From contig JAKSNY010000014.1 in assembly GCA_024399495.1 (NCBI GenBank), forward strand, positions 1 to 61,876: 61,876 nucleotides of DNA. The letters are read 5' to 3'. The position numbers and the translations under genes were made by a program. Origin of the DNA: Paludibacteraceae bacterium (lineage in GTDB: Bacteria; Bacteroidota; Bacteroidia; Bacteroidales; Paludibacteraceae). Under the pieces are notes generated by a model. That model was given only the letters and a program-made list of their open reading frames with translations, was not told where the DNA came from and ran no database searches. This document shows, piece by piece, positions 3,149 through 56,999 of the stretch; position 1 is the stretch's first letter; every line of letters starts with the position of its first letter.

Positions 3149-4693
3149 ATGAAGAAATTCACTTATTTGGCTGCTATGCTGTTGGTAATGGCTGGAGCCG
3201 TATCGTGCAAGAAGAATGCAGAAGTAAAAGACCCGAAGCAGCAGGAGCCTCAGGGAAAAATGATTCCGTTCTCAGTAACGGCTGGTTCAAGCAAAGAGAA
3301 GACGAGTATGGTAGATAAAGTGCTCTCATGGACAGAGGGAGATGTCATCAATGTGATGACACAAGATGGTCAGTATCCCACCAGTCTGACATTGAGCGGT
3401 GGAGCAGGTACCGCAACAGGAAGTTTTGAGGGTGAGATATCAGAGAATGTGGAGGACGGTGCTATACTGTGCGGAATGTATAATGTGAATTACAGCAATG
3501 GAGCCTATACGGTAAACATTCCAGCCACACAGACATATACAGAGGGCTCATTTCAGGAGGGTTTGTATCCGTCAATAGGTACAGGCACATACGTTAAGGA
3601 CGGGAAGACAAGCATAAACTTCTCAACAAACCCATTGGGCATATTGAGAGTCACCGTAAAGGGAGCCTCAGATGAGATACTGACAAAAGTGTCAATCAAA
3701 TCAAATAATGCAGATATAAAACTTGCAGGAGATTTTACACTTGAAAGTGGGACATGGGCTGTATCAGGCGGTACGGAAGATGAGATAGTGATGAACTGCC
3801 CAAATCTGCAACTCTCTGCAGCTGGCGTCCAAGTTAACTTTGTGGTGCCACCAGTAACATTTGCAAGCGGAGATTTGAAGGTTGTGTCAACAATAACAAA
3901 GGCTGGCGTGGCAGGCAAACTATACACAGAGACCAACTCAAGTGAGATTACCATAAACGCAAACGACGTTGCGAAAATAGAGCGTTCCGTTGTTCTTGTA
4001 AAGGATGTACAAGGTTATTGGTATAACGTGTGCAAGATAGGATCTCAGATATGGACGGCTGAGAATATGCGTTGCAACCAATATGACACAAATTCTGAGG
4101 CTTACAATGCAGATTGGCTTACCAATAACACAATACCTACATCATTAAGTGATGTAAATATTCCATACTACACAGACCCTACAACGGAGAGCAGACCTCC
4201 TTATATGGATGATGATCAGTGGGGCAGGTTGGGTATGCTGTACAACTGGGCAGCGGCGGTAGGTGTTGCAGACGGAGAAAAACAGACTGAAGCATTCAGT
4301 AACAATCGTCAGGGAATCTGTCCTAACGGTTGGCATGTTCCTTCAAGAGATGAATGGACCGCTCTTGTAAATCGTGTGGAGCAAACAGACGGCAAGGGAG
4401 CAGACACGGCTGGCAAGCACCTGAGAACCACCTCTGGTTGGAATGATGGTAGCAACCCACAAACCTACCCACAAGGATTGGATTCGTATGGTTTTGCGGC
4501 TTTACCAGCAGGTTTCGCAGGGGGAATCAGCTTGTTCAGTGTTGGCACCAGCACCTATTTCTGGACGGCTACTCCAAGTAAGAGCAAAATCGGTAACGCT
4601 TACGGTCACCGTCTCATTTATTCCGGAGACGAATTGAGCGAGGGCGACGGCGGTATGAACTACGGACAATCTGTGCGTTGTCTAAAGAATTAA
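3149..4693 (+). CDS. Fimbrillin-like/FISUMP surface lipoprotein
   Basis: The 514 aa protein starts with a lipoprotein signal peptide; lipobox GAVSC puts the lipidated cysteine at residue 20. Residues 35-290 resemble a fimbrillin/Mfa-like domain (KTSMVDKVLSWTEGD, then ATQTYTEG). From about residue 293 a FISUMP domain follows (WTAENMRCNQYDT, YNWAAAVG, RQGICPNGWHVPS, FAALPAGF), ending SVRCLKN. The N-terminal 310 codons are almost identical to those at 15889, whereas the C-terminal parts differ, a sign of recent duplication or gene conversion. The C-terminal 60 residues look hypervariable. Predicted to be surface-exposed, possibly a pilus or adhesin subunit (inference). Confidence 0.85.
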   Translation: MKKFTYLAAMLLVMAGAVSCKKNAEVKDPKQQEPQGKMIPFSVTAGSSKEKTSMVDKVLSWTEGDVINVMTQDGQYPTSLTLSGGAGTATGSFEGEISENVEDGAILCGMYNVNYSNGAYTVNIPATQTYTEGSFQEGLYPSIGTGTYVKDGKTSINFSTNPLGILRVTVKGASDEILTKVSIKSNNADIKLAGDFTLESGTWAVSGGTEDEIVMNCPNLQLSAAGVQVNFVVPPVTFASGDLKVVSTITKAGVAGKLYTETNSSEITINANDVAKIERSVVLVKDVQGYWYNVCKIGSQIWTAENMRCNQYDTNSEAYNADWLTNNTIPTSLSDVNIPYYTDPTTESRPPYMDDDQWGRLGMLYNWAAAVGVADGEKQTEAFSNNRQGICPNGWHVPSRDEWTALVNRVEQTDGKGADTAGKHLRTTSGWNDGSNPQTYPQGLDSYGFAALPAGFAGGISLFSVGTSTYFWTATPSKSKIGNAYGHRLIYSGDELSEGDGGMNYGQSVRCLKN

Positions 4694-15888: not shown

Positions 15889-17412
15889 ATGAAGAAATTC
15901 ACTTATTTGGCTGCTATGCTGTTGGTAATGGCTGGAGCCGTATCGTGCAAGAAGAATGCAGAAGTAAAAGACCCGAAGCAGCAGGAGCCTCAGGGAAAAA
16001 TGATTCCGTTCTCAGTAACGGCTGGTTCAAGCAAAGAGAAGACGAGTATGGTAGATAAAGTGCTCTCATGGACAGAGGGAGATGTCATCAATGTGATGAC
16101 ACAAGATGGTCAGTATCCCACCAGTCTGACATTGAGCGGTGGAGCAGGTACCGCAACAGGAAGTTTTGAGGGTGAGATATCAGAGAATGTGGAGGACGGT
16201 GCTATACTGTGCGGAATGTATAATGTGAATTACAGCAATGGAGCCTATACGGTAAACATTCCAGCCACACAGACATATACAGAGGGCTCATTTCAGGAGG
16301 GTTTGTATCCGTCAATAGGTACAGGCACATACGTTAAGGACGGGAAGACAAGCATAAACTTCTCAACAAACCCATTGGGCATATTGAGAGTCACCGTAAA
16401 GGGAGCCTCAGATGAGATACTGACAAAAGTGTCAATCAAATCAAATAATGCAGATATAAAACTTGCAGGAGATTTTACACTTGAAAGTGGGACATGGGCT
16501 GTATCAGGCGGTACGGAAGATGAGATAGTGATGAACTGCCCAAATCTGCAACTCTCTGCAGCTGGCGTCCAAGTTAACTTTGTGGTGCCACCAGTAACAT
16601 TTGCAAGCGGAGATTTGAAGGTTGTGTCAACAATAACAAAGGCTGGCGTGGCAGGCAAACTATACACAGAGACCAACTCAAGTGAGATTACCATAAACGC
16701 AAACGACGTTGCGAAAATAGAGCGTTCCGTTGTTCTTGTAAAGGATGTACAAGGTTATTGGTATAACGTGTGCAAGATAGGCTCTCAGATATGGATGGCT
16801 GAGAATATGCGTTGCAACCAATATGACACAAATTCTAAAGCATACAACGCTGAATGGCTTGACAATAACACCATTCCTACATCAGATAATGCTGTATATA
16901 CTCCATATTATACTAATACATCGGATAGGAGCAAGTGGGAATTCCCAGACTATGATACAGATACTTCTGTCAATCTTACAGATGAGCAAGTGTCAAAGTT
17001 TGGCTATCTTTATAATTGGGCTGCCGCAGTAGGTGTGGATAAGGGAGCTTATATTGAATTCAGTGGTAATTGTCAGGGAATCTGCCCCAACGGCTGGCAT
17101 GTGCCGTCATCTGATGAGATTGATTATATTGTTTCTTATACTGATAATGAGGGCGGTTGCCTTAAAACAACATCGGGTTGGTATGAAATAAACAATAGCA
17201 AAGACGATTATGGCTTTGCGGCTTTGCCGGTGGCTGAAGAAGCCGCTGGGAGTATATTATACAATACAGGTACCATGACCCGCTATTGGTCATCACTCTC
17301 TGCCGAGGATCAATACTCAGTTGTTTTTGAATTGAAATACAGTGAAATTAACGTAAATATTGAATACCCAGATTCGCAAAGATGTGTATCTGTACGTTGT
17401 ATAAAAGATTAA
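15889..17412 (+). CDS. Fimbrillin-like/FISUMP surface lipoprotein
   Basis: The 507 aa lipoprotein has its lipobox cysteine at residue 20. The first ~310 residues are essentially identical to those of the gene at 3149; identity continues upstream into the small ORF. The FISUMP domain then diverges (WMAENMRCNQYDTNSKAY, YLYNWAAAVG, CQGICPNGWHVPS, FAALPV) and ends SVRCIKD. Its C-terminus reads as an ordinary diverged sequence with few signs of adenine-directed diversity. The whole cassette sits between two genes of the aryl-polyene-like cluster. Predicted surface-exposed. Confidence 0.85.
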   Translation: MKKFTYLAAMLLVMAGAVSCKKNAEVKDPKQQEPQGKMIPFSVTAGSSKEKTSMVDKVLSWTEGDVINVMTQDGQYPTSLTLSGGAGTATGSFEGEISENVEDGAILCGMYNVNYSNGAYTVNIPATQTYTEGSFQEGLYPSIGTGTYVKDGKTSINFSTNPLGILRVTVKGASDEILTKVSIKSNNADIKLAGDFTLESGTWAVSGGTEDEIVMNCPNLQLSAAGVQVNFVVPPVTFASGDLKVVSTITKAGVAGKLYTETNSSEITINANDVAKIERSVVLVKDVQGYWYNVCKIGSQIWMAENMRCNQYDTNSKAYNAEWLDNNTIPTSDNAVYTPYYTNTSDRSKWEFPDYDTDTSVNLTDEQVSKFGYLYNWAAAVGVDKGAYIEFSGNCQGICPNGWHVPSSDEIDYIVSYTDNEGGCLKTTSGWYEINNSKDDYGFAALPVAEEAAGSILYNTGTMTRYWSSLSAEDQYSVVFELKYSEINVNIEYPDSQRCVSVRCIKD

Positions 17413-29285: not shown

Positions 29286-30719
29286 ATGAAGAAATTTACT
29301 TATTTGGCTGTCACGCTGTTGGTAATGGCGGGAGCCGTATCGTGCAAGAAGAATGCAGACGTTAAAGAGCCAACACCGCAACCTACAGGCGTAATGCGTC
29401 ACGTCACAGTGTCTGCGGCAGGTCAGGGAACAGCCAAGACCAGCGTAATATCAGGCGGAACACTCATTTGGTCAAATGATGACCATCTGAGCATAGTGCC
29501 TACAGCAGGCGGATTTGATGCCGTGGCACTTGATATAAAAGATGGTGCAGGCACATCATCAGGTACATTTGAAGGGGATATAGACTCCGGCATAAAGGAT
29601 GACACACAACTCTACGGCTGGGCAGGCGGTAATTGGGCGTACGACAGCGGTGCATTCACCGTCAATATGCCAACCACACAGACATACGCAGGTGACGGAC
29701 TTGCAGAGAACGCATATCCGTCGATAGGTACAGGTACAATAAGCGGAGGAATAACACTCAGCAATCCGTTTGGCGTGCTGTGCCTTATAGTTAAAGGAGA
29801 GACCACAGACGCAGTAAAGAGCATAACCTTGACATCAGCGGCAAAAAACCTTGCAGGTGAGTTTACTGTAAATCCAAGTTCAACACCTGTTACAGTAACA
29901 GAAGGTTCGTCAAAAACAATAACACTTAACTGCACAACAGCCGTTGCATTGGCTACAGACGGCGTAAACTTCCGCATAGTGATACCAGCGGCAAGTTATG
30001 CAGACAAGGACCTTACGGTAAAAGTAACAAAATCAGACGACACATCATTCAATGTTACATTGGGTGCCACAACCGTTACGGCAAGCAATGTTACAAAAGT
30101 GGAAGTGGAGGATGTACCGGCAACCACAGGAGAGGCTGAAGTTAAAGCCGAGGCTGGTGTTCCTGGTAATAAAGTTAAGTGGGTGCAATTATGGAAAGAT
30201 GGTCCTAAGTTTGCTGAGTTCAACGTAGGTGCCACAACTGCAACTGGCGAAAGTAGCTACGGTGGCTACTATACTTGGGGTAGCAGTTACAAGAATGGAA
30301 ATAATATAACTTGGAAAGATGACCACAACACAGGCTCAGGCTCACTTACAGGCGACACTGACACAGCCACCAAGTTGTGGGGCAGTAACTGGCGTATGCC
30401 ATCAGATGCTGAATTTAAGGCTCTTTGGGAAAACTGCACTGTAGCGTGGAAATCTGCATCAGAAAGCGGACATGGTGTTGCTGGCAGAGTATATACAGGC
30501 AAGACAGAAGGCTACACAGGTAACTCCGTATTTTTCCCCGCTGCGGGCTACTGCCACAATGGCAAAGTCAACAACGCAGGCAGTAACGGCGTCTATTGGA
30601 GTTCCACTCCTAACGGCAGCAACGCCTTCTTCTTGCACTTCCTCTCGAGCAATCAGAGCGTGGACTACCACGGCCGCTACTACGGGCAGTCTGTGCGTGC
30701 GGTTTTCAGCACTTACTAA
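29286..30719 (+). CDS. DGR-variable surface lipoprotein (collapsed locus)
   Basis: The 477 aa lipoprotein has its lipobox Cys at residue 20. Residues 30-275 are fimbrillin-like (TKTSVISGG-type opening: KTSVISGGTLIWSNDDHL). From about residue 290 there is a lectin-like domain of the kind found in DGR targets (KWVQLWKDGPKFAEFNVGAT, KLWGSNWRMPSDAEF, NSVFFPAAGY), ending SVRAVFSTY. Codons 440-474 form a variable repeat that matches the template at 53963 except mainly at template adenines. Downstream, instead of an accessory gene and template, it runs directly into the 5' flank of a broken reverse transcriptase. Confidence 0.88.
   Translation: MKKFTYLAVTLLVMAGAVSCKKNADVKEPTPQPTGVMRHVTVSAAGQGTAKTSVISGGTLIWSNDDHLSIVPTAGGFDAVALDIKDGAGTSSGTFEGDIDSGIKDDTQLYGWAGGNWAYDSGAFTVNMPTTQTYAGDGLAENAYPSIGTGTISGGITLSNPFGVLCLIVKGETTDAVKSITLTSAAKNLAGEFTVNPSSTPVTVTEGSSKTITLNCTTAVALATDGVNFRIVIPAASYADKDLTVKVTKSDDTSFNVTLGATTVTASNVTKVEVEDVPATTGEAEVKAEAGVPGNKVKWVQLWKDGPKFAEFNVGATTATGESSYGGYYTWGSSYKNGNNITWKDDHNTGSGSLTGDTDTATKLWGSNWRMPSDAEFKALWENCTVAWKSASESGHGVAGRVYTGKTEGYTGNSVFFPAAGYCHNGKVNNAGSNGVYWSSTPNGSNAFFLHFLSSNQSVDYHGRYYGQSVRAVFSTY
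30603..30706 (+). repeat. DGR variable repeat A (VR-A)
   Basis: Hand alignment with the template at 53963-54069 gives one 3 nt gap and 18 substitutions, of which 17 are at template adenines (AAC becoming TAC, CAC, GAC, GGC, AGC, TTC or CTC). The identical GTCTGTGCGTGCGGTTTTC end is followed by further homology up to the reverse transcriptase start. Confidence 0.88.
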
Positions 30720-30757
30720 TTTTATGCTTTACTTGGTATGGTGCATATCTCATTAAT

Positions 30758-30777
30758 GGGGAGGTCAGGGCCTCCCC
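30758..30777 (+). promoter_or_regulatory. Hairpin before the reverse transcriptase remnant
   Basis: GGGGAGG pairs with CCTCCCC; TTTTC follows. The equivalent hairpin at 54121-54142 has different base pairs but still pairs. Confidence 0.6.
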
Positions 30778-30796
30778 TTTTCATTTACAAGTAAAT

Positions 30797-31579
30797 ATGC
30801 AAGCATATACTTTAGACCGTCAGCAACTCTACAAAGACCTTCACAAGGCTTATCTGGCGGCTCGTCGCCACAAACGTAACAAAAGGTACCAACAACAGTT
30901 TGAGGTTGATATGTATTGGCAGTTGAAAAATCTCTGTGATGAGTTGTATGAACGCAGGTACAAACCCCGTCCAACCACGTGCTTCACTATATCAGATCCA
31001 AAGAAACGTGAAATTGTAGCGGCTGAGTTCCGTGACCGTATAGTGCATCATCTGTATTACAACTACACTTATCCGTTATTTGTACGCACATTCATACAAG
31101 ATTCATATTCTTGCATCAATGGCAGAGGTACGCTGTACGGCATAAGACGGCTGGAGATGCATATACGCAAGGAGAGTCTTAACTATACACGCAGATGTTA
31201 TGTGTTGAAAATGGATATTAAAGGTTATTTTATGAGTATCAGTATATTATGCACAATCCGTTGGAGGGTTGCAGATGCATAGGATGGCCGGAGGATTGGT
31301 TGGGTTTGCCGGAGAGCAAAAGTCTGTTCTATTCAAAACCTGGTCACGGACTACCCATTGGTAATCTCACTTCTCAGCTGTACAGTAATGTTTATATGAA
31401 TGTGTTTGACCAGTGGATTAAGCGGGTTATGGGTGTGAAGCATTATGGGCATTATGCGCCATCATAGAAGTTGGAATATGCGAAACAGAATGCTATCCAA
31501 CCGTCTAAATGTGTTTTGTGAGTATGGTTCATTTAATGAGGAATTGACCAAATTTTCAACTTTCAATTATTTTTATTAA
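30797..31579 (+). pseudogene. DGR reverse transcriptase, catalytically deleted copy
   Basis: Residues 1-149 are nearly the same as in the intact enzyme at 54160 (ending KMDIKGYFMSIS). About 45 residues are then deleted with a frameshift. The reading resumes at HNPLEGCRCIGW through GLPIGNLTSQLYSN and IKRVMGVKHYG, and a second deletion removes everything from the YVDD motif to near the C-terminus. The tail (RNRMLSNRL-like to the stop before 31579) is still recognisable. The second deletion joins copies of GCATTATG. Without YVDD it cannot be active. Confidence 0.85.
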
Positions 31580-31608: not shown

Positions 31609-33207
31609 ATGGGCTTATACTTGAATCCGGGAAATGAGCAGTTAAGACAGGACTTAAGGTCAAAGATTTACATAGATAAATCTATGTTAATATCCAAACT
31701 TAATGAGTTGATAGGTACATCAGATAAGTATCTGTGCATATCGCGTCCACGCCGTTTTGGAAAGAGTATGGCTGGCAATATGATAGCGGCATACTACAGC
31801 AAGGGTTGTGATTCGCGTGAACTTTTCAAAGACCTTAAAATAGCGGGGGACCCAAGTTTTGAGAGCAATCTTAACAATACTAACGTTATTAAGATAGACC
31901 TTAATGCGGAGTATAATAACCTAAGGGATAAGAGTACGCTAATATATGCCTTTTCAGAGGAGGTAAAGAGTGAGTTGCGTGCCGAGTTTCCTACCGTAAC
32001 TATAAAAGAAGAGGACACATTGCCTACTGCACTGACAAGGGTCTATGGTGCCACAGGAGCAAAGTTTGTTATAATAATAGATGAGTACGATGTGCTTGTA
32101 AGGGAGAAGGAAGACGCTCTTCTTAAAGAGTATCTTACATTCCTTAACGGTATGTTCAAGAACTCCACACTTGCACCAGCCATACAACTTGCTTACCTTA
32201 CAGGAATTTTGCCTATTGTAAGGGATAAAATTCAGTCTAAACTTAATTTGTTCAGAGAGTACTCTATGGTTACGCCGTATAACCTTACAGAGTTCATAGG
32301 TTTTACGGCAGAAGAGACCAAGGGTTTATGTGAGAAGTATGGAATGGACTATGCGGAGTGCTGCCGTTGGTATGACGGCTACAGCCTTAAGGAGGTGAAG
32401 GAGATATTCAGCCCTAAATCAGTGGTGGAGGCAATGCTGAATCAGGAGTTCTGCAGTTATTGGACACAGACAGGCTCATTTGATGCACTCAGGCTCTACA
32501 TCTTGATGAACTTCAAGGGCATAAAAGATGATGTAATTACAATGATAGGAGGCGGTAAGGTTGAGGTCAATATCCGCACCTTTGTCAACACAATGGACTC
32601 TTTTGAAACTAAGGATGATGTATTCACCTACCTTATACACCTTGGCTACCTTGCATACGAGATACCCGATTACAGAACTGAGATAAACGGAAAATGTTAT
32701 ATACCAAACCGTGAAATCCGTGAGCAGTGGGTGGATGCTGTGCGTAACGATGAGAGATATAGTGAGGTTATAGAGCAGATACGAGCCTCCAGACAACTTG
32801 TAGAGGAGACCATAAACTGCAATGAAAAGGTGGTGGCGGCTGCATTGGACAAGGCACACCAGAGAGCCACAAATCCACTGACCTACAATAATGAGGCATC
32901 GTTCCAGAGTGCCATAGGCTTGGCATATTTCTATGCCAATCTAAAATATACTGTAATAAAGGAGTTGCCTACAGGTAAGGGTTATGCTGATTTGGCACTG
33001 ATACCATATATCCCTAACATACCTGCTCTAATAATAGAATTAAAGTGCAGCGATAGTGCAGGCAGTGCCATAAACCAAATAAAGAATAAGGAGTATGATG
33101 ACCTTCTGCAACACTACCGTGGAGATATGCTGTTTGTAGGAGTAAGTTATAATAAGAAGAGTAAGAAGCATACTTGCAAAATTGAAAAGTTGACAGTTGA
33201 CAATTGA
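31609..33207 (+). CDS. AAA-ATPase-like protein with C-terminal PD-(D/E)XK domain
   Basis: The 532 aa protein is close to 55398-56999 and more distantly related to 1028 and 49807. Walker A lies in SRPRRFGKSMAGNM, Walker B in FVIIIDEYDVLV; the C-terminal nuclease-like core is GYADLALIPY followed by IIELKC. It directly follows the reverse transcriptase remnant, as its twin follows the intact enzyme, so the pair RT + this gene was duplicated together. Role unknown. Confidence 0.85.
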   Translation: MGLYLNPGNEQLRQDLRSKIYIDKSMLISKLNELIGTSDKYLCISRPRRFGKSMAGNMIAAYYSKGCDSRELFKDLKIAGDPSFESNLNNTNVIKIDLNAEYNNLRDKSTLIYAFSEEVKSELRAEFPTVTIKEEDTLPTALTRVYGATGAKFVIIIDEYDVLVREKEDALLKEYLTFLNGMFKNSTLAPAIQLAYLTGILPIVRDKIQSKLNLFREYSMVTPYNLTEFIGFTAEETKGLCEKYGMDYAECCRWYDGYSLKEVKEIFSPKSVVEAMLNQEFCSYWTQTGSFDALRLYILMNFKGIKDDVITMIGGGKVEVNIRTFVNTMDSFETKDDVFTYLIHLGYLAYEIPDYRTEINGKCYIPNREIREQWVDAVRNDERYSEVIEQIRASRQLVEETINCNEKVVAAALDKAHQRATNPLTYNNEASFQSAIGLAYFYANLKYTVIKELPTGKGYADLALIPYIPNIPALIIELKCSDSAGSAINQIKNKEYDDLLQHYRGDMLFVGVSYNKKSKKHTCKIEKLTVDN

Positions 33208-48129: not shown

Positions 48130-49632
48130 ATGAAAAAGAGTACATTTATTTTAGCGGTGGCTGCAGTGTTATTCGCATTTGTCAGCTGCGAGAAGAAAGG
48201 TTCTGTAGAGCAACAGGCATCAGAAGAACTTATAGAAAAAACATTCTACGCCATACAGGGCGGTAAGGAGAAAACTACCCTAAACCCGTCAACATTGGCA
48301 ACCCTGTGGACGGCAGGAGACGCCATTAAGGTGTATCCTGAAGCAGGTGGTGCAGGCACTAACTTTACGTTGGCAGATGGTGCTGGAGAAAGCGAAGCCA
48401 CATTCACAGGTCTTACAACCCTAAGTAACGTATATGTTGCATTCTACCCTGCGGGAAACGCAAAATCAATAAGCGGTTCCATAGTAAAGTTCAACATACC
48501 TGCCACACAGACTGTAACAAAAGCAGGCTCATTTGACACCAACACAGTTCCAATGGTGGGCTACACCACAGACAACTCACTTGCAATGCTGAATGTAGGC
48601 TCACTGTTTGAACTTGGACTTAAAGCCAAGACCGGCACACCAACGGTTGTGAAGATAGAACTTATTGGCAATAACGGAGAGAACCTTGCAGGAGACTTTA
48701 CAGTAGATGCAAGCGTAAGTGGACAGCCTACTGCTGCATATTCAGCAAACGGAGCAACCACGCTGACAATCAACTGTGGAGAGTATAGCAGTGGCAAATA
48801 TCAAGGTATAGCACTTAACGCTTCAAGTTACACCTATTTCTATATCTCAATACCTGCAGGCGTGTTTACAAGTGGTTTCACCGCTGTCCTAACAGCTACA
48901 GATGGTAAGACAGCCGAGGTTACTACAACTGCTGACATACACAAGGATGCAGCCAAAATTACAGCATTTGAGGATGCTGATATTGAGTTCAAACCATACT
49001 GCAAAAAGTGCAAATATACAGAAACTGTAACAGACATTTGCGGAAACACATACAATCTTGTTACCATAGGCACACAGACTTGGATGGCTGAGAATATGCG
49101 TTGCGACAAGTATGACACTGACAGTGAGAAATCAGGAACTACACTTTCCACATCAGCAAGTGCTGTGTATGACCCATACTACACGCCAACAGGTAGCGGA
49201 GACCCTGCGGCATACGGATACTATTACAACTGGGCTGCCGCTATGGGCTACACAAAGACAGAAGCACAAGGACAAAAAGGAGCATACAGCGGAACCCGTC
49301 AGGGTATATGTCCAAACGGTTTTCATATACCAAGCAGTACGGAGCTCGGTACATTGGCTACAGCCGCTGGTAGTGACCCAGGCAAACACCTTAAAGTATG
49401 TGATGGTTGGAACAACAGAAACGGAGACAACGAAACCTGTTTTGCGGCTCTGCCGGCAGGCCGCGCTTATGGGAGTAGGGTGAGCAATGTTGGTGCCAGC
49501 GCCTACGCTTGGTCATCGGACGCCAACGGTAATAGTGCCTACGGCCGCGCCCTCGATTACAGCAATGCCAACTTTTACGAGTACAGCAACGATAAGAGCT
49601 ACGCATATAGCGTGCGTTGTCTAAGGAACTGA
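48130..49632 (+). CDS. Fimbrillin-like/FISUMP surface lipoprotein, variable C-terminus
   Basis: The 500 aa lipoprotein (Cys20) has an N-terminal domain of a third kind (KTTLNPSTLATLWTAGDAI) related to 51951, and a FISUMP domain (TWMAENMRCDKYDTDSEK, YNWAAAMG, RQGICPNGFHIPS, FAALPAG) ending YAYSVRCLRN. The last 60 codons share framework but not variable codons with the gene at 1-768; positions differ as TAC/CGC, AGT/AAT, AGG/GCC. This looks like a hypervariable lectin-like end fed by a template that is not in the window. Terminator and AAA gene follow. Confidence 0.85.
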   Translation: MKKSTFILAVAAVLFAFVSCEKKGSVEQQASEELIEKTFYAIQGGKEKTTLNPSTLATLWTAGDAIKVYPEAGGAGTNFTLADGAGESEATFTGLTTLSNVYVAFYPAGNAKSISGSIVKFNIPATQTVTKAGSFDTNTVPMVGYTTDNSLAMLNVGSLFELGLKAKTGTPTVVKIELIGNNGENLAGDFTVDASVSGQPTAAYSANGATTLTINCGEYSSGKYQGIALNASSYTYFYISIPAGVFTSGFTAVLTATDGKTAEVTTTADIHKDAAKITAFEDADIEFKPYCKKCKYTETVTDICGNTYNLVTIGTQTWMAENMRCDKYDTDSEKSGTTLSTSASAVYDPYYTPTGSGDPAAYGYYYNWAAAMGYTKTEAQGQKGAYSGTRQGICPNGFHIPSSTELGTLATAAGSDPGKHLKVCDGWNNRNGDNETCFAALPAGRAYGSRVSNVGASAYAWSSDANGNSAYGRALDYSNANFYEYSNDKSYAYSVRCLRN

Positions 49633-49756: not shown

Positions 49757-49806
49757 CAGAGTTAAGGTAATAAATAGAACCTACCTTAAAATATTGGCAG
49801 TTGTAT

Positions 49807-51384
49807 ATGGATACAAAACTAAAAAACTACCCGTTAGGGGTATATACATTTGAGAAGATACGTAATGGCAACTATTTCTATGTTGACAAAACAGGTTATG
49901 TGTATGAAATAGCCAATAAGTATAACTATGTGTTCCTTAGCCGTCCTCGCAGGTTTGGAAAATCCCTGCTTGTAGATACTTTGCAGTGCTATTTTGAGGG
50001 CAGAAAGGAGTTGTTTGCAGGCTTGAAAGCGGATGAACTTGAGAAGGATTGGGTAAAGTACCCAGTGCTCAGGTTTGATATGAGCTCTATTAAATCAATG
50101 AACCCACAAGAGGTGAAAAGCAGCCTCAGCCTAATGATTGGCGAGTATGAAAAGGTTTATGGGAGAAATGAAATGGAGGTCACTTTAGGCAACAGACTTG
50201 AAGGTGTTATAAAGCGTGCCTACACTCAGACAGGTCAAAAGGTGGTATTGCTCATAGACGAGTATGACTCCGCACTGCTTAAGGTTATGCACAACAAGCC
50301 TGTGTTTGAGGAATTAAGAGATATGCTCCGCAACTTCTACGGACCTATAAAAATATGTGACTCAATGTTGCGTTTCGGGTTCATAACGGGCATAACCAAA
50401 TTCTCACAGCTAAGCATATTCTCTGAGATAAACAACCTTACCAACATAAGTATGCTGCCCGATTATGACGGACTGTGCGGCATAACCAAGGATGAATTAC
50501 TCACTCAGTGCAAACCTGATATACAGGCATTGGCTGATAAATTAAGATGCAGTTATGATGATGCTGTGTCAAAACTCACTGAGAATTATGACGGCTATCA
50601 TTTCTCAAAAGGCGATGACGGAGTAATGACAGATGTGTTTAATCCGTTCAGTCTTATAAACGCATTCAGTGCCAGGGATATAGGTCAGTACTGGTACAGT
50701 TCAGGCACGCCTACGTTCCTGTTTGGTGAAATGCGCAAGCACAAAGAGGAACTGCAGGACATAGAGGGCAGACGTCTGAATGAAGATGGTTTCAATATCT
50801 CCCCTGAGACCGCAGAATCCGCCCTCCCTGTGCTGTATCAGAGCGGATACCTGACCATAAAGGCATACAACACCATCTCAGGCATATATACATTGGGATT
50901 CCCAAACAAAGAGGTTAAAAATGGTTTTCTGAAAGGTTTTCTTCCGCAAGTGTCAAACCTCCCGTCACAGATGGGCAGTAATATGCTCATTAAAGTGGTT
51001 GATGCACTCTACGCCGATGATATAGACACCGCACTCACAGAGATAAAGGCGTACATAGCCGCCATTCCGTACTACTATGAGAACAAGACGGAGCCTGCGT
51101 TCCAGACCATAATGTACCTGATACTAACGCTTTTAGGTCAGAACATGAGGGTTGAGGTTCCCTTTGCCGTAGGCAGAACAGATGCCATACTTGAGACCAC
51201 AAACACAGTCTATATAATAGAGTACAAGGTGGATAAGTCTGTGGAAGAGTCGTTGAAACAGATAGACGACATGCACTACGCAGACCCCTATCTTGCCGAC
51301 CCACGCCGCAAGCTGAAGGTGGGCATAAACTTCACCACAGAGAGCCGCACCATAGAGAGTTGGAAGAGTGTGGAAGTCAAGTGA
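49807..51384 (+). CDS. AAA-ATPase-like protein with C-terminal PD-(D/E)XK domain
   Basis: The 525 aa close paralogue of 1028-2605 (same length, long identical stretches in the middle, more divergence at 95-115 and 320-400). Walker A in SRPRRFGKS, Walker B in VVLLIDEYDSAL, nuclease core GRTDAILETT and IIEYKVDK. Start placed at ATG 49807, matching the paralogue. As there, it follows a FISUMP lipoprotein gene and is followed by promoter and structured leader. Role unknown. Confidence 0.85.
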   Translation: MDTKLKNYPLGVYTFEKIRNGNYFYVDKTGYVYEIANKYNYVFLSRPRRFGKSLLVDTLQCYFEGRKELFAGLKADELEKDWVKYPVLRFDMSSIKSMNPQEVKSSLSLMIGEYEKVYGRNEMEVTLGNRLEGVIKRAYTQTGQKVVLLIDEYDSALLKVMHNKPVFEELRDMLRNFYGPIKICDSMLRFGFITGITKFSQLSIFSEINNLTNISMLPDYDGLCGITKDELLTQCKPDIQALADKLRCSYDDAVSKLTENYDGYHFSKGDDGVMTDVFNPFSLINAFSARDIGQYWYSSGTPTFLFGEMRKHKEELQDIEGRRLNEDGFNISPETAESALPVLYQSGYLTIKAYNTISGIYTLGFPNKEVKNGFLKGFLPQVSNLPSQMGSNMLIKVVDALYADDIDTALTEIKAYIAAIPYYYENKTEPAFQTIMYLILTLLGQNMRVEVPFAVGRTDAILETTNTVYIIEYKVDKSVEESLKQIDDMHYADPYLADPRRKLKVGINFTTESRTIESWKSVEVK

Positions 51385-51405
51385 AACGAAAAATCTCAAA
51401 AAAAA

Positions 51406-51436
51406 TTTGCAGAATAAAAAATAATATCTAAATTTG
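51406..51436 (+). promoter_or_regulatory. Promoter of structured leader copy 4 (DGR target operon)
   Basis: TTTG (51406-51409), 19 nt, TAAATTTG (51429-51436). Confidence 0.8.
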
Positions 51437-51459
51437 CAGTTGTTAATCAAAAGAAATGT

Positions 51460-51543
51460 TAAGACATAGAAGCCGGAGACGGCTTAAATATAAAGGTTGG
51501 TAGAAATTACCCTCCCCGAGTGCATCGGGGGGGGTAATTTGCT
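51460..51543 (+). ncRNA. Repeated structured 5' leader element, copy 4
   Basis: AAGCCG-GAGA-CGGCTT hairpin (GNRA-type loop), linker AAATATAAAGGTTGGTAGA, 16 bp second stem with GTGCA loop. It heads the transcript of the DGR target gene at 51951. Confidence 0.65.
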
Positions 51544-51549
51544 TAATAT

Positions 51550-51780
51550 CAAACAGTTACAACAGAGTTGTAACTGTAAGGGTCAAGGAACAAGGTTTAT
51601 GTATGATGTATGATGTATGATGTATGAGGGCAACCCCCCTCGTCATTTTGAGCGAAACGTAGTGTAGCGAAAAATCTTTACTTGAACATTGCACAATATG
51701 AACCAAAAGATATCTCACTTCGTTCGATATGACGAAATAGCAAAAAACGAGATTAACTAACATATTTATTAACTTTCAAC
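51550..51780. repeat. Intergenic repeats ahead of the DGR operon
   Basis: GTTACAACAGAGTTGTAAC palindrome, TGTATGATGTATG runs and CGTCATTTTGAGCGAAACG-type sequence. No gene is seen. Confidence 0.55.
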
Positions 51781-51802
51781 TTTCAATTTTCAACTTTCAA
51801 TT

Positions 51803-51922
51803 ATGAAAAAGATTTATTCCGCTCCGCAATTGGAGCAAGTGAGAATGGAGGCAGAAATGCTCGTAATGGCTGGGTCAGCCACAGTGCCAAGTTTCACAAC
51901 AGAGAGTGTAAACTGGCTGTAG
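51803..51922 (+). CDS. Small conserved leader-like ORF (39 aa)
   Basis: Starts MKKIYSAPQLEQVRMEAEML, then VMAGS, ending SVNWL. It lies 28 nt before the DGR target lipoprotein. Function unknown. Confidence 0.65.
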   Translation: MKKIYSAPQLEQVRMEAEMLVMAGSATVPSFTTESVNWL

Positions 51923-51950
51923 TATTAACCTTAAAAACAAGAAGAAAGAG

Positions 51951-53333
51951 ATGAAAAAACTTATTTACTTAGCAGGAGCCGCATTGGTAATGATGGCTTC
52001 AGCATCATGTGAGAAGAAAGCAGATGTGCAGAACCCAGAGAGCAAGGAGGGTATGGTAAAAACTGAGTTCAGTGCCGTATCAAAAGAGAGCAAAGAAAAG
52101 ACCGCAATAGATGGCTCTGATATTCTATGGTCAACAGGAGACCAAGTTAAAATCTACGCAGGTACATCAACGGAAGGCAATCCATTCACCCTTACAGATG
52201 GTGCTGGCACCACATCTGCAATATTTGAAGGTTGGATAGCAGAGACAGCCACAGCACCTTACTATGCAGTATATCCATCATCAGCGGCACAGGGCATAGA
52301 CGGCAGTACCATCAAGTACAGCATACCTGCTAATCAAGCGTATGTAGAGAACTCATTTGCCACAAGCACAGTTCCAATGGTTGCATACAGTGAGGCAGAC
52401 AAGTCACTTGCTTTCAAGAACCAGACAGCGTTCATAAAACTGCAACTGACAGGTGCTGGCACAATAAAGACAATGGAGATAGCATCTGCCGCAAACAACA
52501 TCTGCGGAACGTTCAGCGTAAGCAAGACTGACCCCACAGCCGCATCAACGGCAGTTACAGGTGCAAAGAAGATAACAGTCACAAACATAGAAGGTACAGA
52601 ACTTGACGCATCAGAAGCCATAAATGTTATAATAGCATTAGCACCTGCTAATTTTGCTGCAAATGACCTCACTCTCTCAATGACGGCAACTGATGGCAAG
52701 GCGTTCTCAACAAAGTTAGGTGGCTTTACCGTAGGACGTTCACAAGGTAAGGCTGTTGCGATTAATGTGGAGTTTGTGACACAAACCACAGGCGAGGCTG
52801 AGACAAAAGACGGAACTATGGTTAAGTGGGTTCAGCTGTGGGAGAATGGTCCTAAGTGGGCTGAGTACAACGTAGGTGCAACATCTGTAGGAGAGTACGG
52901 TGGCTACTATGCTTGGGGTGGCAGTCAAAGCAAGGTTGACGACCACAATACAGGTTCAGACCCTCTTACAGGCGACAGTGATACAGCCACCAAGTTGTGG
53001 GGCAGTAACTGGCGTATGCCATCAGAAGCTGAATTAGATGCTCTTCTTGACAACTGTACTGTAGCGTGGAAATCAGCATCAGAGAGCGGATATAATGTTG
53101 CAGGCAAATTATATAGAGGCAATGGAGACTACTCGGGCAACTCCGTATTTTTCCCTGCTGCGGGCTACTGCAGCGGTGGCGAAGTCTACTACGCAGGCAG
53201 TGACGGCTTCTATTGGACTTCCATTCCTAATGGCATCAACGCCTACACCTTGGACTTCACCTCAAGCTATCAGAGCGTGGGCAGCTACTACAGCCGCGAC
53301 GGCGGGTATTCTGTGCGTGCGGTTTTGAAGTAA
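51951..53333 (+). CDS. DGR target surface lipoprotein (intact DGR locus)
   Basis: The 460 aa lipoprotein has lipobox ASASC (Cys20). Residues 30-275 are fimbrillin-like (KTAIDGSDILWSTGDQVKIY). From about 283 there is a lectin-like domain: VKWVQLWENGPKWAEYNVGAT, KLWGSNWRMPSEAEL, NSVFFPAAGY, ending GYSVRAVLK. Codons 424-459 form the variable repeat VR-B. In DGRs such codons are rewritten by adenine-mutated cDNA of the template repeat, giving ligand-binding diversity on a constant scaffold. The accessory gene, template and reverse transcriptase follow within 0.9 kb. Confidence 0.92.
   Translation: MKKLIYLAGAALVMMASASCEKKADVQNPESKEGMVKTEFSAVSKESKEKTAIDGSDILWSTGDQVKIYAGTSTEGNPFTLTDGAGTTSAIFEGWIAETATAPYYAVYPSSAAQGIDGSTIKYSIPANQAYVENSFATSTVPMVAYSEADKSLAFKNQTAFIKLQLTGAGTIKTMEIASAANNICGTFSVSKTDPTAASTAVTGAKKITVTNIEGTELDASEAINVIIALAPANFAANDLTLSMTATDGKAFSTKLGGFTVGRSQGKAVAINVEFVTQTTGEAETKDGTMVKWVQLWENGPKWAEYNVGATSVGEYGGYYAWGGSQSKVDDHNTGSDPLTGDSDTATKLWGSNWRMPSEAELDALLDNCTVAWKSASESGYNVAGKLYRGNGDYSGNSVFFPAAGYCSGGEVYYAGSDGFYWTSIPNGINAYTLDFTSSYQSVGSYYSRDGGYSVRAVLK
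53220..53326 (+). repeat. DGR variable repeat B (VR-B)
   Basis: Same length (107 nt) as the template at 53963-54069, but aligned with one AAC-type codon missing near the start and one extra codon between GTG and CGC. Of 18 hand-counted substitutions, 15 are at template adenines. It ends with TCTGTGCGTGCGGTTTT shared with the template. Confidence 0.9.
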
Positions 53334-53351
53334 CTTGAATACTGCACATCC

Positions 53352-53374
53352 CGCCCACCACCCAGGCGGGAGTG
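53352..53374 (+). other. GC-rich hairpin just after VR-B
   Basis: TCCCGCC, 9 nt loop, GGCGGGA, beginning 15-20 nt after the target gene's stop codon and not followed by a T-run. In studied DGRs a hairpin or cruciform at this place promotes retrohoming. Confidence 0.65.
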
Positions 53375-53383
53375 AGATAACCA

Positions 53384-53461
53384 AACGTTTCCAATTGGGG
53401 TGGTAAGGGCACAGCCTCCCCGAGAAAAGGCTGTGCAAGACCCACTCCAAATGGAAACGTT
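53384..53461 (+). other. Large composite hairpin between VR-B and accessory gene
   Basis: The outer stem is 20 bp (AACGTTTCCAATTGGGGTGG against a complement with two mismatches at 53442-53461). An inner 9 bp perfect stem GCACAGCCT/AGGCTGTGC (53409-53417/53428-53436) encloses CCCCGAGAAA. It is too symmetrical to be chance and probably acts as a cruciform or structured RNA of the DGR. Confidence 0.7.
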
Positions 53462-53474
53462 CAATTTAAGAGAA

Positions 53475-53999
53475 ATGGAAAAAATAGATGAGGTTTTCAA
53501 GGTGGAGGGCAACCGCTCCGTGCAGGAGCAGTGGTTGCGGATACACTTGTTTAAAGAGGGTAACTTCTACCGTGCATACGAGCAGAGTGCGTGGCTTATG
53601 TCCCATTACGCAGGGTCTGATTTGCAAGCCAAAAAACATAAGACCAAGCAGAGTCCGGATGGGAGTTTTGTTTTTGTTGGATTCCCGGTGTCAAGTCTTG
53701 ACAAGTTCCGTCCTAAGGAGAGTGGAGAGACGGAGACAGATTCAAATCACATTGTATTGGTACTGCCGTCGCAGACATTTCCAGAGGAGGCATCGGTTGA
53801 GGTTCTGACAGATGATTTTTCAAAATGGAAGAGAGAGATGGCATATACAGATGCAAAGGCTGATAATGATGAGAGGAAAGACAAAAGCAATTTGAACGGG
53901 GAGTTTGGTAAATCAGTTGGCGGAATACGAATGACAGGCATATTGCAAGAGTTGCTATCATATCCACTCCTAATGGCAACAACAACGCCTACAACTTGA
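53475..53999 (+). CDS. DGR accessory protein, MutS-like (MSL type)
   Basis: A 174 aa protein from ATG 53475 (an upstream ATG at 53451 lies inside the large hairpin). Residues 15-60 (LRIHLFKEGNFYRAYEQSAW, then FVFVGFPVSSLDKF) resemble the mismatch-recognition domain I of MutS (GDFYELF ... AGVPYHSL). MutS-like accessory ORFs have been described in DGRs in place of Avd. It lies between target gene and template. Its last dozen codons run into the template repeat in another frame. Likely assists cDNA synthesis or mutagenic integration (inference). Confidence 0.6.
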   Translation: MEKIDEVFKVEGNRSVQEQWLRIHLFKEGNFYRAYEQSAWLMSHYAGSDLQAKKHKTKQSPDGSFVFVGFPVSSLDKFRPKESGETETDSNHIVLVLPSQTFPEEASVEVLTDDFSKWKREMAYTDAKADNDERKDKSNLNGEFGKSVGGIRMTGILQELLSYPLLMATTTPTT

Positions 54000-54069
54000 A
54001 CTTCAACTCAAGCAATCAGAACGTGAACAACAACAACCGCAACAACGGACAGTCTGTGCGTGCGGTTTT
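53963..54069 (+). repeat. DGR template repeat (TR)
   Basis: In the frame of the target gene it reads almost only AAC/AAT codons at the variable sites (GGC AAC AAC AAC GCC, then GTG AAC AAC AAC AAC CGC AAC AAC), with a framework of TTC, TCA AGC and CAG. It aligns to VR-A and VR-B with substitutions at adenines, and is followed by the shared end GTCTGTGCGTGCGGTTTT. It lies 90 nt before the reverse transcriptase, the normal DGR arrangement. Confidence 0.93.
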
Positions 54070-54120
54070 CAGCACTTGCTAATTTTAATGCTTTACTTGG
54101 TATGGTGCATATCTCATTAA

Positions 54121-54142
54121 AGGGGAGGTTGAGACCTCCTCT
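54121..54142 (+). promoter_or_regulatory. Hairpin between template and reverse transcriptase
   Basis: AGGGGAGGT pairs with ACCTCCTCT (one G-T pair) around TGAG, then TTTC. The collapsed locus has the equivalent hairpin at 30758-30777 with different bases but intact pairing. Confidence 0.65.
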
Positions 54143-54159
54143 TTTCATTTACAAAAAAT

Positions 54160-55368
54160 ATGAAAGCATATACTTTAGACCGTCAGCAACTCTACAAAGA
54201 CCTTCACAAGGCTTATCTGGCGGCTCGCAAGCACAAACGCGGCAAAAGATATCAGCAGCAGTTTGAGGCTGATATGTATTGGCAGTTGAAAAATCTTTGT
54301 GATGAGTTGTATGAACGCAGGTACAAGCCTCGTCCAACCACGTGCTTTACCATTTCAGATCCAAAGAAGCGTGAAATTGTGGCGGCTGAGTTCCGTGACC
54401 GCATAGTGCATCATCTGTATTACAACTACACGTATCCGTTGTTTGTACGCACATTCATACAAGATTCATATTCTTGTATTAATGGCAGAGGTACACTGTA
54501 CGGCATAAGACGGCTGGAGATGCATATACGCAAGGAGAGCTTTAACTACACACACAGGTGCTATGTGTTGAAAATGGATATCAAGGGATATTTTATGAGT
54601 ATCAGTAGGGATAAACTTCTTACAATATGCCGCAGTTCTTTAGAAAAAATGATGTATCACAGGGTTCATAACAATACTGCTGTGTGCTGGGCTGATATAC
54701 TGGATTTTGATTTTATAGATTATCTGTCAGAATTGATTATTACGCACAATCCGTTAGATGGTTGCAGATGTATAGGATGGCCAGAGGATTGGAATGGTTT
54801 GCCTGAGAGTAAAAGCCTGTTCCATTCAAAACAAGGTTACGGGCTGCCCATTGGTAATCTTACCTCTCAATTGTACAGCAATGTTTATATGAATGTGTTT
54901 GACCAATGGATTAAACGTGTTATGGGGGTAAGGCATTATGGAAGATATGTTGATGATTTTTACATAGTTTCAGACAACAGAGATTTGTTGAGAATGCTGA
55001 TACCGCAGATAGGGTCTTTTTTACATAGAGAGTTGTCATTGGAGATAAATCAAGGGAAAACAATGATATGTGACGTGATGTATGGAGTGGAGTATTTAGG
55101 TGCGTACATTAAGCCGTGGCGAACATACGTGGCAAACAAGACTATGTGTAGAGTGAATAAGAGTCTTAATAAGTTGGAAAATGAGTTGCCGCACGTTACT
55201 GTTGAACATTTAAGGTCATCACTTAGCAGCGTTATGGGCATTATGCGCCATCATAGAAGTTGGAATCTGCGTAACAGTATGTTATCCAAGCGTCTAAAAG
55301 TGTTTTATAGGTACGGCTCATTTAATGAGGAATTGACCAAATTTTCAACTTTCAATTATTTTTATTAA
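54160..55368 (+). CDS. Reverse transcriptase of the diversity-generating retroelement
   Basis: The 402 aa enzyme makes adenine-mutagenised cDNA from the template RNA. Visible RT motifs: KMDIKGYF with Asp140, QGYGLPIGNLTSQLYSN at 225-241 (the DGR-typical GNLTSQ in place of the QGxxxSP of most RTs), catalytic YVDD at 263-266, SLEINQGKT and YLGAYIKPW. It has no maturase or integrase domain. N-terminal residues 1-90 (RRYKPRPTTCFTISDPKKRE, IVAAEFRDRIVHH) are as in other DGR enzymes. A broken copy lies at 30797. The stop codon lies in a palindrome shared with that copy. Confidence 0.95.
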   Translation: MKAYTLDRQQLYKDLHKAYLAARKHKRGKRYQQQFEADMYWQLKNLCDELYERRYKPRPTTCFTISDPKKREIVAAEFRDRIVHHLYYNYTYPLFVRTFIQDSYSCINGRGTLYGIRRLEMHIRKESFNYTHRCYVLKMDIKGYFMSISRDKLLTICRSSLEKMMYHRVHNNTAVCWADILDFDFIDYLSELIITHNPLDGCRCIGWPEDWNGLPESKSLFHSKQGYGLPIGNLTSQLYSNVYMNVFDQWIKRVMGVRHYGRYVDDFYIVSDNRDLLRMLIPQIGSFLHRELSLEINQGKTMICDVMYGVEYLGAYIKPWRTYVANKTMCRVNKSLNKLENELPHVTVEHLRSSLSSVMGIMRHHRSWNLRNSMLSKRLKVFYRYGSFNEELTKFSTFNYFY

Positions 55369-55392
55369 ATTTGCAAGTGCAAATTTAATAAA
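55361..55392. repeat. Palindrome between RT and AAA genes
   Basis: TTTATTAAATTTGC, AAGT, GCAAATTTAATAAA: a perfect 14 bp inverted repeat containing TAAATTTG on both strands and the RT stop codon. It is duplicated at 31574-31605. Confidence 0.75.
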
Positions 55393-55397
55393 AAACT

Positions 55398-56999
55398 ATG
55401 GGCTTATACTTGAATCCGGGAAATGACCAGTTAAGGCAGGACTTAAGGTCGCAGATATACATTGATAAGTCAATGATTATATCAAAAATGAACAAGTTGT
55501 TTGACACGGCAGACAGATTTGTGTGTCTCTCACGTCCTCGCCGTTTTGGAAAGAGTATGGCTGGCAATATGATAGCGGCGTACTACAGCAAAGGTTGTGA
55601 TTCCAGAGAACTTTTTAAAGACCTTAAAATAGCCCAAGACCCAAGTTTTGAGAGCAACCTTAACAATACTAACGTAATTAAGATAGACCTTAATGCAATG
55701 TACAACAAGGCAACAGATAAAAATAACCTTGTTAAATTTTTTACAGGTCTGGTTAGAGATGAGTTTGTGGAGGCATTCCCAGATGTTGGAATTAAGGACG
55801 ATGACACTATGCCATTGGTGCTTGAGAGGGTATATGCAAAGAAAGGAGAGAAGTTTGTAGTCATAATAGATGAGTATGACGTATTGGTGCGTGAAAGAGC
55901 AGATAAGGAGTTATTTGAAGAGTATCTCCGTTTTCTTAACGGAATGTTCAAGAACGCTGACCTTGCCCCAGCCATCCAACTTGCATACCTTACAGGAATT
56001 TTACCCATTGTAAGAGATAAAATCCAGTCAAAACTTAATCTGTTTACAGAGTACTCTATGGTGGACCCATACAACCTTACAGAGTTTGTTGGTTTTACTG
56101 CTGATGAGACCAAAGGCTTATGCGAGAAGTATGGAATGGACTACGATGAGTGCAGAAGATGGTATGACGGCTATAGCCTTAACGATATAAAAGAGATATT
56201 CAACCCAAAGTCGGTGGTGGAGGCTATGAATCGCCGTAAATTTGGCAGTTACTGGACACAGACAGGCTCATTTGACGCTCTCAGACTCTATATACTGATG
56301 AACTTCAAGGGTATAAAGGATGATGTTATTACAATGATAGGTGGTGGCAAAGTAGAGGTAAATATCCGCACATTTGTGAATACAATGGACTCATTTGAGA
56401 CCAAGGACGATGTATTCACTTACCTTATACACCTTGGCTACCTTGCATACGAGATACCCGATTACAGAACAGAGGTGTCAGGAAAGTGCTATATACCAAA
56501 TCACGAAATCCGTGAGCAGTGGATGGATGCTGTGCGTAATGATGAAAGATACAGTGAGATTATAGAGCAGGTACAAGCCTCCAGACAACTTATAGAGGAG
56601 ACCATAAACTGCAATGAAAGGGCAGTTGCTGCGGCATTGGACAAGGCACACCAGAGAGCCACAAATCCGCTTACCTACAATAATGAGGCATCGTTCCAGA
56701 GTGCCATAGGCTTGGCATATTTCTATGCAAACCTAAAATACACAGTGATAAAGGAGTTGCCTACAGGTAAGGGTTATGCTGATTTGGCACTGATACCGTA
56801 TGTTCCAAATATTCCAGCACTAATAATAGAATTAAAATGCAGCGATAGTGCAGAAAGTGCCATAAACCAAATAAAGAATAAAGAGTACGATGACCTTCTG
56901 CAACACTACCGTGGAGATATGCTGTTTGTGGGGGTAAGTTACAATAAGAAGAGCAAGAAGCATACGTGCAAGATAGAAAAAATTATGTATGATGTATGA
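55398..56999 (+). CDS. AAA-ATPase-like protein with C-terminal PD-(D/E)XK domain
   Basis: The 533 aa close paralogue of 31609-33207. Walker A in SRPRRFGKSMAGNM, Walker B FVVIIDEYDVLV, nuclease core GYADLALIPY and IIELKC. It starts 29 nt after the RT stop. The C-terminal IMYDV and stop codon come from the TGTATGATGTATGA intergenic repeat, while the twin at 31609 ends in a different tail, so the ends were re-made by repeats. Role unknown; a link to DGR function is not established. Confidence 0.85.
   Translation: MGLYLNPGNDQLRQDLRSQIYIDKSMIISKMNKLFDTADRFVCLSRPRRFGKSMAGNMIAAYYSKGCDSRELFKDLKIAQDPSFESNLNNTNVIKIDLNAMYNKATDKNNLVKFFTGLVRDEFVEAFPDVGIKDDDTMPLVLERVYAKKGEKFVVIIDEYDVLVRERADKELFEEYLRFLNGMFKNADLAPAIQLAYLTGILPIVRDKIQSKLNLFTEYSMVDPYNLTEFVGFTADETKGLCEKYGMDYDECRRWYDGYSLNDIKEIFNPKSVVEAMNRRKFGSYWTQTGSFDALRLYILMNFKGIKDDVITMIGGGKVEVNIRTFVNTMDSFETKDDVFTYLIHLGYLAYEIPDYRTEVSGKCYIPNHEIREQWMDAVRNDERYSEIIEQVQASRQLIEETINCNERAVAAALDKAHQRATNPLTYNNEASFQSAIGLAYFYANLKYTVIKELPTGKGYADLALIPYVPNIPALIIELKCSDSAESAINQIKNKEYDDLLQHYRGDMLFVGVSYNKKSKKHTCKIEKIMYDV

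Follow-up and report, generated by a model that had tools for sequence, protein, structure and literature searches.

A diversity-generating retroelement with a shortened template repeat and seven lectin-ended targets in a Paludibacteraceae bacterium

We studied a diversity-generating retroelement (DGR) at positions 51951-55368 of a 61,876-nt stretch of DNA from a Paludibacteraceae bacterium (GCA_024399495.1, contig JAKSNY010000014.1, C6 in our numbering; hereafter the window), in an assembly of 2.08 Mb in 26 contigs that is 82.5% complete. The locus is a genuine DGR, from a gut bacterium, and part of its machinery has probably been lost. The first-pass annotation of the window had described a complete element in the canonical order of target gene with variable repeat (VR), accessory gene, template repeat (TR) and reverse transcriptase (RT), and we found this order and each of these parts on the forward strand. 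The open reading frame (ORF) of the cis target was called at 51951-53333 (460 amino acids), and the VR at 53220-53326 ends 7 nt before the end of this ORF, stop codon included. The accessory ORF lies at 53451-53999, and the RT gene at 54160-55368 has an intact frame and carries IGNLTSQ and YVDD. An asymmetric alignment in which template adenines may vary recovered exactly the proposed pair of the VR and the TR at 53963-54069. However, the element is not complete, because its TR is short for its kind and the C-terminus of its accessory protein is cut.

The extent of the loss was seen by comparison with 57 related loci. TR-VR pairs, with 0-6 non-A mismatches each, were detected in 35 of them; the script cut off the other 22, where the upstream sequence was too short or no distinct pair was obtained. 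Thirty-three of the relatives' TRs measured 175-221 nt, one 149 nt and one 127 nt, and the window TR measures 107 nt, lacking its 5′ part. The distance from the accessory stop to the TR start had a median of 164 nt in 25 of the 35 relatives, and the accessory ORF of the window ends inside the TR. When we aligned the window accessory with 38 relatives (four of 42 accessory ORFs were left out here, and seven of 42 from accessory alignment A3), it followed them up to a Tyr-Pro and then lacked the conserved C-terminal ~23 residues. One deletion would explain both the TR shortening and the accessory loss. We place a putative junction from the accessory gene to the middle of the TR at 53960-53970, based on the accessories and TRs of the relatives, from which the deletion can be estimated at ~330 nt (roughly 70 + 164 + 90). 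Its two ends possibly have 7-8 bases in common, as judged by eye. The genome contains one accessory gene, and neither a second TR nor a second accessory turned up when the assembly, which is 82.5% complete, was searched by pattern and by protein.

Substitutions in the VRs are concentrated at template adenines. In the codon alignment of the cis VR with the TR, 14 of the 35 A sites of the template differed and 4 of the 70 non-A sites did (Fisher p = 2.9e-5), and one codon was lost and one gained, both at AAC runs; passages of PMC12875486 mention a proposal that DGRs undergo slippage by codon lengths at AAC repeats. We identified 12 lectin-end matches in the genome, seven of which carry VRs of the TR at 53963-54069, six detected by DNA search and the seventh by protein search. 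One is the cis VR, one lies in a second cassette (target gene 29286-30719) and five lie on other contigs. The A bias was present in all seven (Fisher p = 2.9e-5, 4.3e-6, 4e-9, 4.6e-6, 5.7e-5, 0.0057 and 2.5e-4), and it was absent from the ~320 nt just upstream of the VR when the cis target was compared with the six other targets (six pairs, p 0.17-0.74). The remaining five lectin paralogues fitted the TR poorly, with non-A differences at 0.34-0.43 of sites. Four of them showed no significant A bias (p 0.06-0.56); L025 showed more change at A than at non-A sites (p = 0.00046), yet its non-A change reached 43% and 21 positions were gapped. A lipoprotein-like start is seen in five of the seven targets, and the other two encode short proteins with a signal-like N-terminus that are probably secreted. 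The lectin-ended lipoprotein gene at 48130-49632 was also considered as a carrier of a further VR and was rejected, as it ends in a FISUMP domain and the asymmetric scan of the window gave no TR match there.

Moreover, variation persists where the present TR has no counterpart. The seven own VRs are still hypervariable at 53163-53216 and the corresponding positions, mostly in codons with a fixed third base. We classed the sites of this segment as A when at least half of the relatives' TRs carry A there (24 of 25 TRs cover the segment), and 15 of these 17 A sites vary among the own VRs, whereas only 8 of the 37 remaining sites do (odds ratio 27, p = 5e-6). We also searched the assembly by pattern for part of the segment, with a tolerance of 3 mismatches; besides the seven VRs, this gave two 3-mismatch matches that were not template-like, and the control counts were 3 and 3. 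This fossil variation in the sequences proves that a longer template once existed. Because half of the template has apparently been deleted, the presumed adhesins keep old variation for which the assembly contains no template.

We propose that in the past the RT and the accessory, of the MutS-domain-I-like (MSL) class, copied the RNA of an adenine-rich TR of ~200 nt with errors at A. By analogy with known DGRs, seven or more genes for surface proteins with C-type-lectin tails, namely five fimbrillin-like lipoproteins and the two short proteins, would then have had their 3′ ends replaced by the cDNA through mutagenic retrohoming. The ~330-nt deletion would later have fused the 3′ end of the accessory gene to a point midway along the TR, so that the last ~23 residues of the accessory were lost together with the spacer between accessory and TR and the initial ~90 nt of the TR. 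The element is now more likely idle; at best, it could still rewrite the final ~107 nt of its targets and no more.

A short TR that still rewrote its targets should leave the templated half of the VRs cleaner at fixed sites. We observed that it was not cleaner: 28 of 355 fixed sites differed there, and 8 of 244 did in the half that has no template (p = 0.02), in a test whose 5′ count is lowered by site classes that were chosen after seeing the data. For targets L015-L018 the two halves did not differ (8/202 templated, 3/140 untemplated, p = 0.54). In addition, five of the seven own VRs carry TAT or TAC opposite a CAG of the TR. We read the element as stopped or crippled, and neither the fixed-site test nor these codons are proof of inactivity. 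With half of the template and the accessory end missing, and a templated VR half that is no cleaner, the first-pass statement, in the present tense, that this cell diversifies its adhesin is unsupported.

Several observations weigh against such a loss of function, besides the late choice of site classes. In the last 36 codons of VR L017, 69 of the 70 non-A positions agree with the TR, as a template active until recently could produce. Short TRs, of 149 and 127 nt, were also detected in two of the 35 relatives; a full TR may lie in the part missing from the assembly; and the RT frame is intact, with a divergence from the RT remnant of the second cassette that was mostly under purifying selection. 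The first of these points also fits a working DGR with a short template, in which the 3′ ~107 nt of the targets would still evolve and the 5′ half of the binding face would be frozen. This alternative comes closest to the first-pass annotation and we consider it unlikely. An intact RT with its catalytic motif, a TR that keeps its 3′ end and an A bias over the templated part in 7/7 VRs speak for it as well, but the templated half is no cleaner than the untemplated one, the TAT/TAC codons recur, and the accessory has lost its conserved end; according to passages of PMC12875486, sequence at the 3′ end of avd stops reverse transcription in phage BPP-1.

It is rather improbable that the DGR is actually complete, with a truncation that arose in assembly or represents a minority variant, or with a further, full TR in the unassembled sequence. 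The assembly is fragmented into 26 contigs, the TR and the VRs are near-repeats of the sort that assemblers handle badly, and the fossil variation proves an earlier longer template; however, the accessory frame is open across the junction, no second TR or accessory was found by the pattern and protein searches of the assembly, and the deletion ends have at most 7-8 bases in common by eye, fewer than the usual assembly word sizes. That there was never DGR activity here, and the lectin ends diverged through ordinary selection and gene conversion among paralogues, is hardly credible: module swapping is evident in N-modules identical over ~600 nt (L015/L018) and ~900 nt (genes 3149/15889), and five paralogues fit the TR poorly (L025 even so with more A than non-A change), but the A bias lies in the VRs and not just upstream, the untemplated variable sites are predicted by the adenines of other species' TRs, and an RT of the DGR clade stands next to the TR.

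The preferred reading, a genuine DGR with part of its machinery lost, is also favored by a second, broken cassette at 29286-31576 on the same strand. Its target gene (29286-30719) carries a VR at 30603-30706, which is joined without a gap to the sequence found after the TR in the first cassette. The accessory and the TR are absent, and the RT is a remnant (30797-31576) with two large internal deletions; the genome thus holds, as counted, one intact RT and this remnant. We compared the two RTs over 223 collinear codons and obtained a nonsynonymous divergence (dN) of 0.055, inflated by misalignment of the last few codons of the second block, and a synonymous divergence (dS) of 0.51. Because dN is low against dS, purifying selection must have acted on most of the evolution of both RTs until the break. 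The accessory and TR would have been lost most simply via recombination between VR and TR, and the RT was broken.

RT phylogeny, a check suggested together with the first-pass annotation, placed 54160-55368 in the DGR clade. RTs of DGRs carry the signature motif [ILV]GxxxSQ. In a tree of 86 RTs, the window RT fell within 80 DGR-type RTs (including those of BPP-1 and VHML), which were split at 100/99 from an outgroup of six (group II intron, Drt2 and Cas1-linked RTs) whose long branches were flagged by the tree tool. It formed a lone branch next to 56 RTs, mainly from herbivore-gut Bacteroidales and IMG/VR contigs. IMG/VR contained 23 contigs with related RTs (30-56% identity in the best segment), and the exact TR 3′-end string had 0 matches in this database. 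A phage origin was considered and set aside, as the 20 of these IMG/VR RTs that were included in the tree fall into a group to which the window RT does not belong; prophage genes were not searched for.

We further looked at the distribution of the element in the genus and the family. Among 16 genomes of the genus, our own included, the window RT was found only in G000; the other RTs of the genus were one of 40% identity in G002 and weak matches (23-31%) in G005 and G013, and no RT match was obtained in G012 (95% complete) and G011 (80%). Six matches to the TR at 53963-54069 were found in G011, G012 and G013. We analysed four of these VRs, leaving out one whose ORF was not found and one that repeats another VR, and all four were A-biased (p 6.6e-4 to 2.5e-5), so that the concentration of changes at template adenines noted in the first-pass annotation holds for all seven own VRs and for these four. 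Genomes that keep A-biased VRs with no RT match (G012, G011) or only a weak one (G013) are in favor of a target family left behind by its machinery. In the family, the accessory was present in 15 of 358 genomes. We examined 8 of the 17 accessory matches outside our own genome: four loci had full TR-VR pairs of 184-222 nt, one of which (L146) has a stop codon in its accessory match, and four had none, two of them with stop codons and one on a short locus. Three of the full pairs agree in length and in counts with related loci that are labelled Paludibacteraceae. L150 and L151 (genomes G059 and G042) combine accessory matches that contain internal stops with the lack of a detected full TR-VR pair, and are perhaps further decayed MSL DGRs.

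The accessory model matched MutS domain I in fold. By sequence, 15 of 36 accessory family members gave a MutS_I match, and the window copy scored 18.8 against the Pfam cut-off of 20.6; searching the PDB sequences with the accessory profile returned a single unrelated row at E 0.98. The Phe aligned with the wedge Phe of MutS domain I, which reads mismatches, is kept in 35 of 36 members, and at the position of the MutS Glu the members are basic (Arg in 30, Lys in 3 and His in 2 of 36). This residue pattern gives a concrete, testable idea of the role of the accessory. It might be a re-purposed mismatch reader that binds the mispaired TR-RNA:cDNA or cDNA:VR duplex and shields the errors at A sites from repair, in a system that here ran on for a while with half a template and left its lectins half frozen and half evolving; we give this combined idea little credence at present.

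The cis target combines a lipobox N-terminus, a fimbrillin-like module and a C-type-lectin-like end that carries the VR. Its structural model had a mean predicted local distance difference test score (pLDDT) of 84 and a predicted template modelling score (pTM) of 0.64. In Foldseek it matched fimbrial and cell-adhesion proteins of Bacteroides, with a best E of 2.8e-8, and, further down, Mfa3 (5e-5), Mfa4 (9.4e-5) and FimA (1.1e-3) of P. gingivalis. The target-normalised TM scores were 0.33-0.54 over the ten best matches, except for 4eps (0.22), and the overall superpositions were loose, with a root-mean-square deviation of ~7-12 Å in most top matches. Mfa_like_1 was detected in two of seven window paralogues and not in the target itself, and a profile of the target N-module had no matches among PDB sequences. 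The lectin end matched Lcl_C (23.7 bits, cut-off 34.9) and FISUMP (22.7, cut-off 41.65) in the right place, below both cut-offs. The model thus supports a fimbrillin fold for the target, whose function would be surface adhesion. From the first-pass picture of a fimbrillin-like, lipid-anchored adhesin, putatively a pilus or adhesin tip, the lipid anchor stands on the lipobox sequence and the fimbrillin likeness on the fold matches of the model; the ongoing diversification did not stand. The window contains no fewer than nine lipoprotein genes whose ends resemble FISUMP or Lcl_C, starting at 3149, 15889, 29286, 39936, 41653, 43239, 45425, 48130 and 51951, and VRs of the TR occur only in those at 29286 and 51951. 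The N-modules of the lipoproteins at 3149-4693 and 15889-17412 are 100% identical over the ~900 nt, as are those of L015 and L018 over the ~600 nt, and the lectin ends diverge in both pairs, apparently through module swapping or gene conversion.

This kind of element is already known, as a multi-target MSL DGR with pilin-like targets, and the locus in the window is a new, decaying member. MSL accessories are a recognised class, PF01624 (passages of PMC10053308, citing Wu et al. 2018); the accessory family studied here has MutS_I matches and the fold of MutS domain I in common with it, and the window copy lacks the C-terminal end. According to the parts of PMC12632263 on Macadangdang et al. 2024, Bacteroides DGRs diversify type V tip pilins. 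These are likewise on Bacteroidales chromosomes, with pilin-like, fimbrillin-fold targets and the same TR/VR logic; here, in contrast, both the TR and the accessory are shortened, and a single TR matches seven dispersed targets. The DGR of Treponema denticola uses one RT and TR for up to seven dispersed lipoprotein-like targets of lectin fold, and isolates with neither RT nor TR retain leftover targets (passages of PMC4891356). Our element resembles it in these respects, differs in having an MSL accessory instead of HRDC, and has a truncated TR, of which those passages mention none for Treponema. Remote targets are also described for cyanobacteria in passages of PMC7517822, and several VRs per TR are common according to passages of PMC6642488. 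With Bordetella phage BPP-1 the window has in common the gene order and a hairpin 3′ of the VR, as given in passages of PMC3240598 and PMC12875486, which describe an Avd accessory in place of MSL and a 4-nt GRNA hairpin loop in place of 9 nt. In the annotated BPP-1 record the TR starts right after avd, unlike the spacer, median 164 nt, of the window's clade. The open-access literature that we searched contained nothing pertinent to decay, truncation or loss of DGRs. The worth of the locus lies in its record of decay and in an accessory family that keeps the MutS-aligned Phe but not the Glu. It shows one route by which a DGR decays, and that the target family can outlive the DGR across species; the targets preserve a readable fossil once the template is lost, from which one could in principle date how long ago the element was last active.

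The hairpins reported 3′ of the VR were also found. The first, at 53345-53374, is GC-rich with a 9-nt loop (z -3.5 to -3.7), and the second, at 53384-53461, is a large imperfect inverted repeat that overlaps the accessory start (z -7.6); Rfam gave no match at E ≤ 0.1 within 51400-55500. We dropped the idea that the hairpin marks live VRs, since a strong hairpin is confined to the cis VR (z -3.7) among the seven own VRs, with -2.0 at L017 and weaker values at the rest; in 25 relatives the best values were -3.6, -2.3 and -2.1.

Four AAA-ATPase-like genes were observed in the window (1028-2605, 31609-33207, 49801-51384 and 55398-56999). Two come after the RT or RT remnant, and these genes downstream of the two cassettes have similar starts; the other two lie shortly upstream of lectin lipoprotein genes. 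Pfam AAA-ATPase_like and PDDEXK_9 were found in all three that were scanned (1028, 49801 and 55398), and the protein of 55398 had a match in 1 of 58 related loci. Finally, we identified a family of small peptide genes (~39-45 amino acids, MKK.YSAP..EQVRMEAE.), with five members in the window (2981, 15718, 41493, 47985 and 51803, all on the forward strand) and others in three further stretches of the genome (L008:6588 and L009:5373, forward; L010:10059, reverse). The five window members each lie ~125-175 nt upstream of a fimbrillin-like lectin lipoprotein gene.

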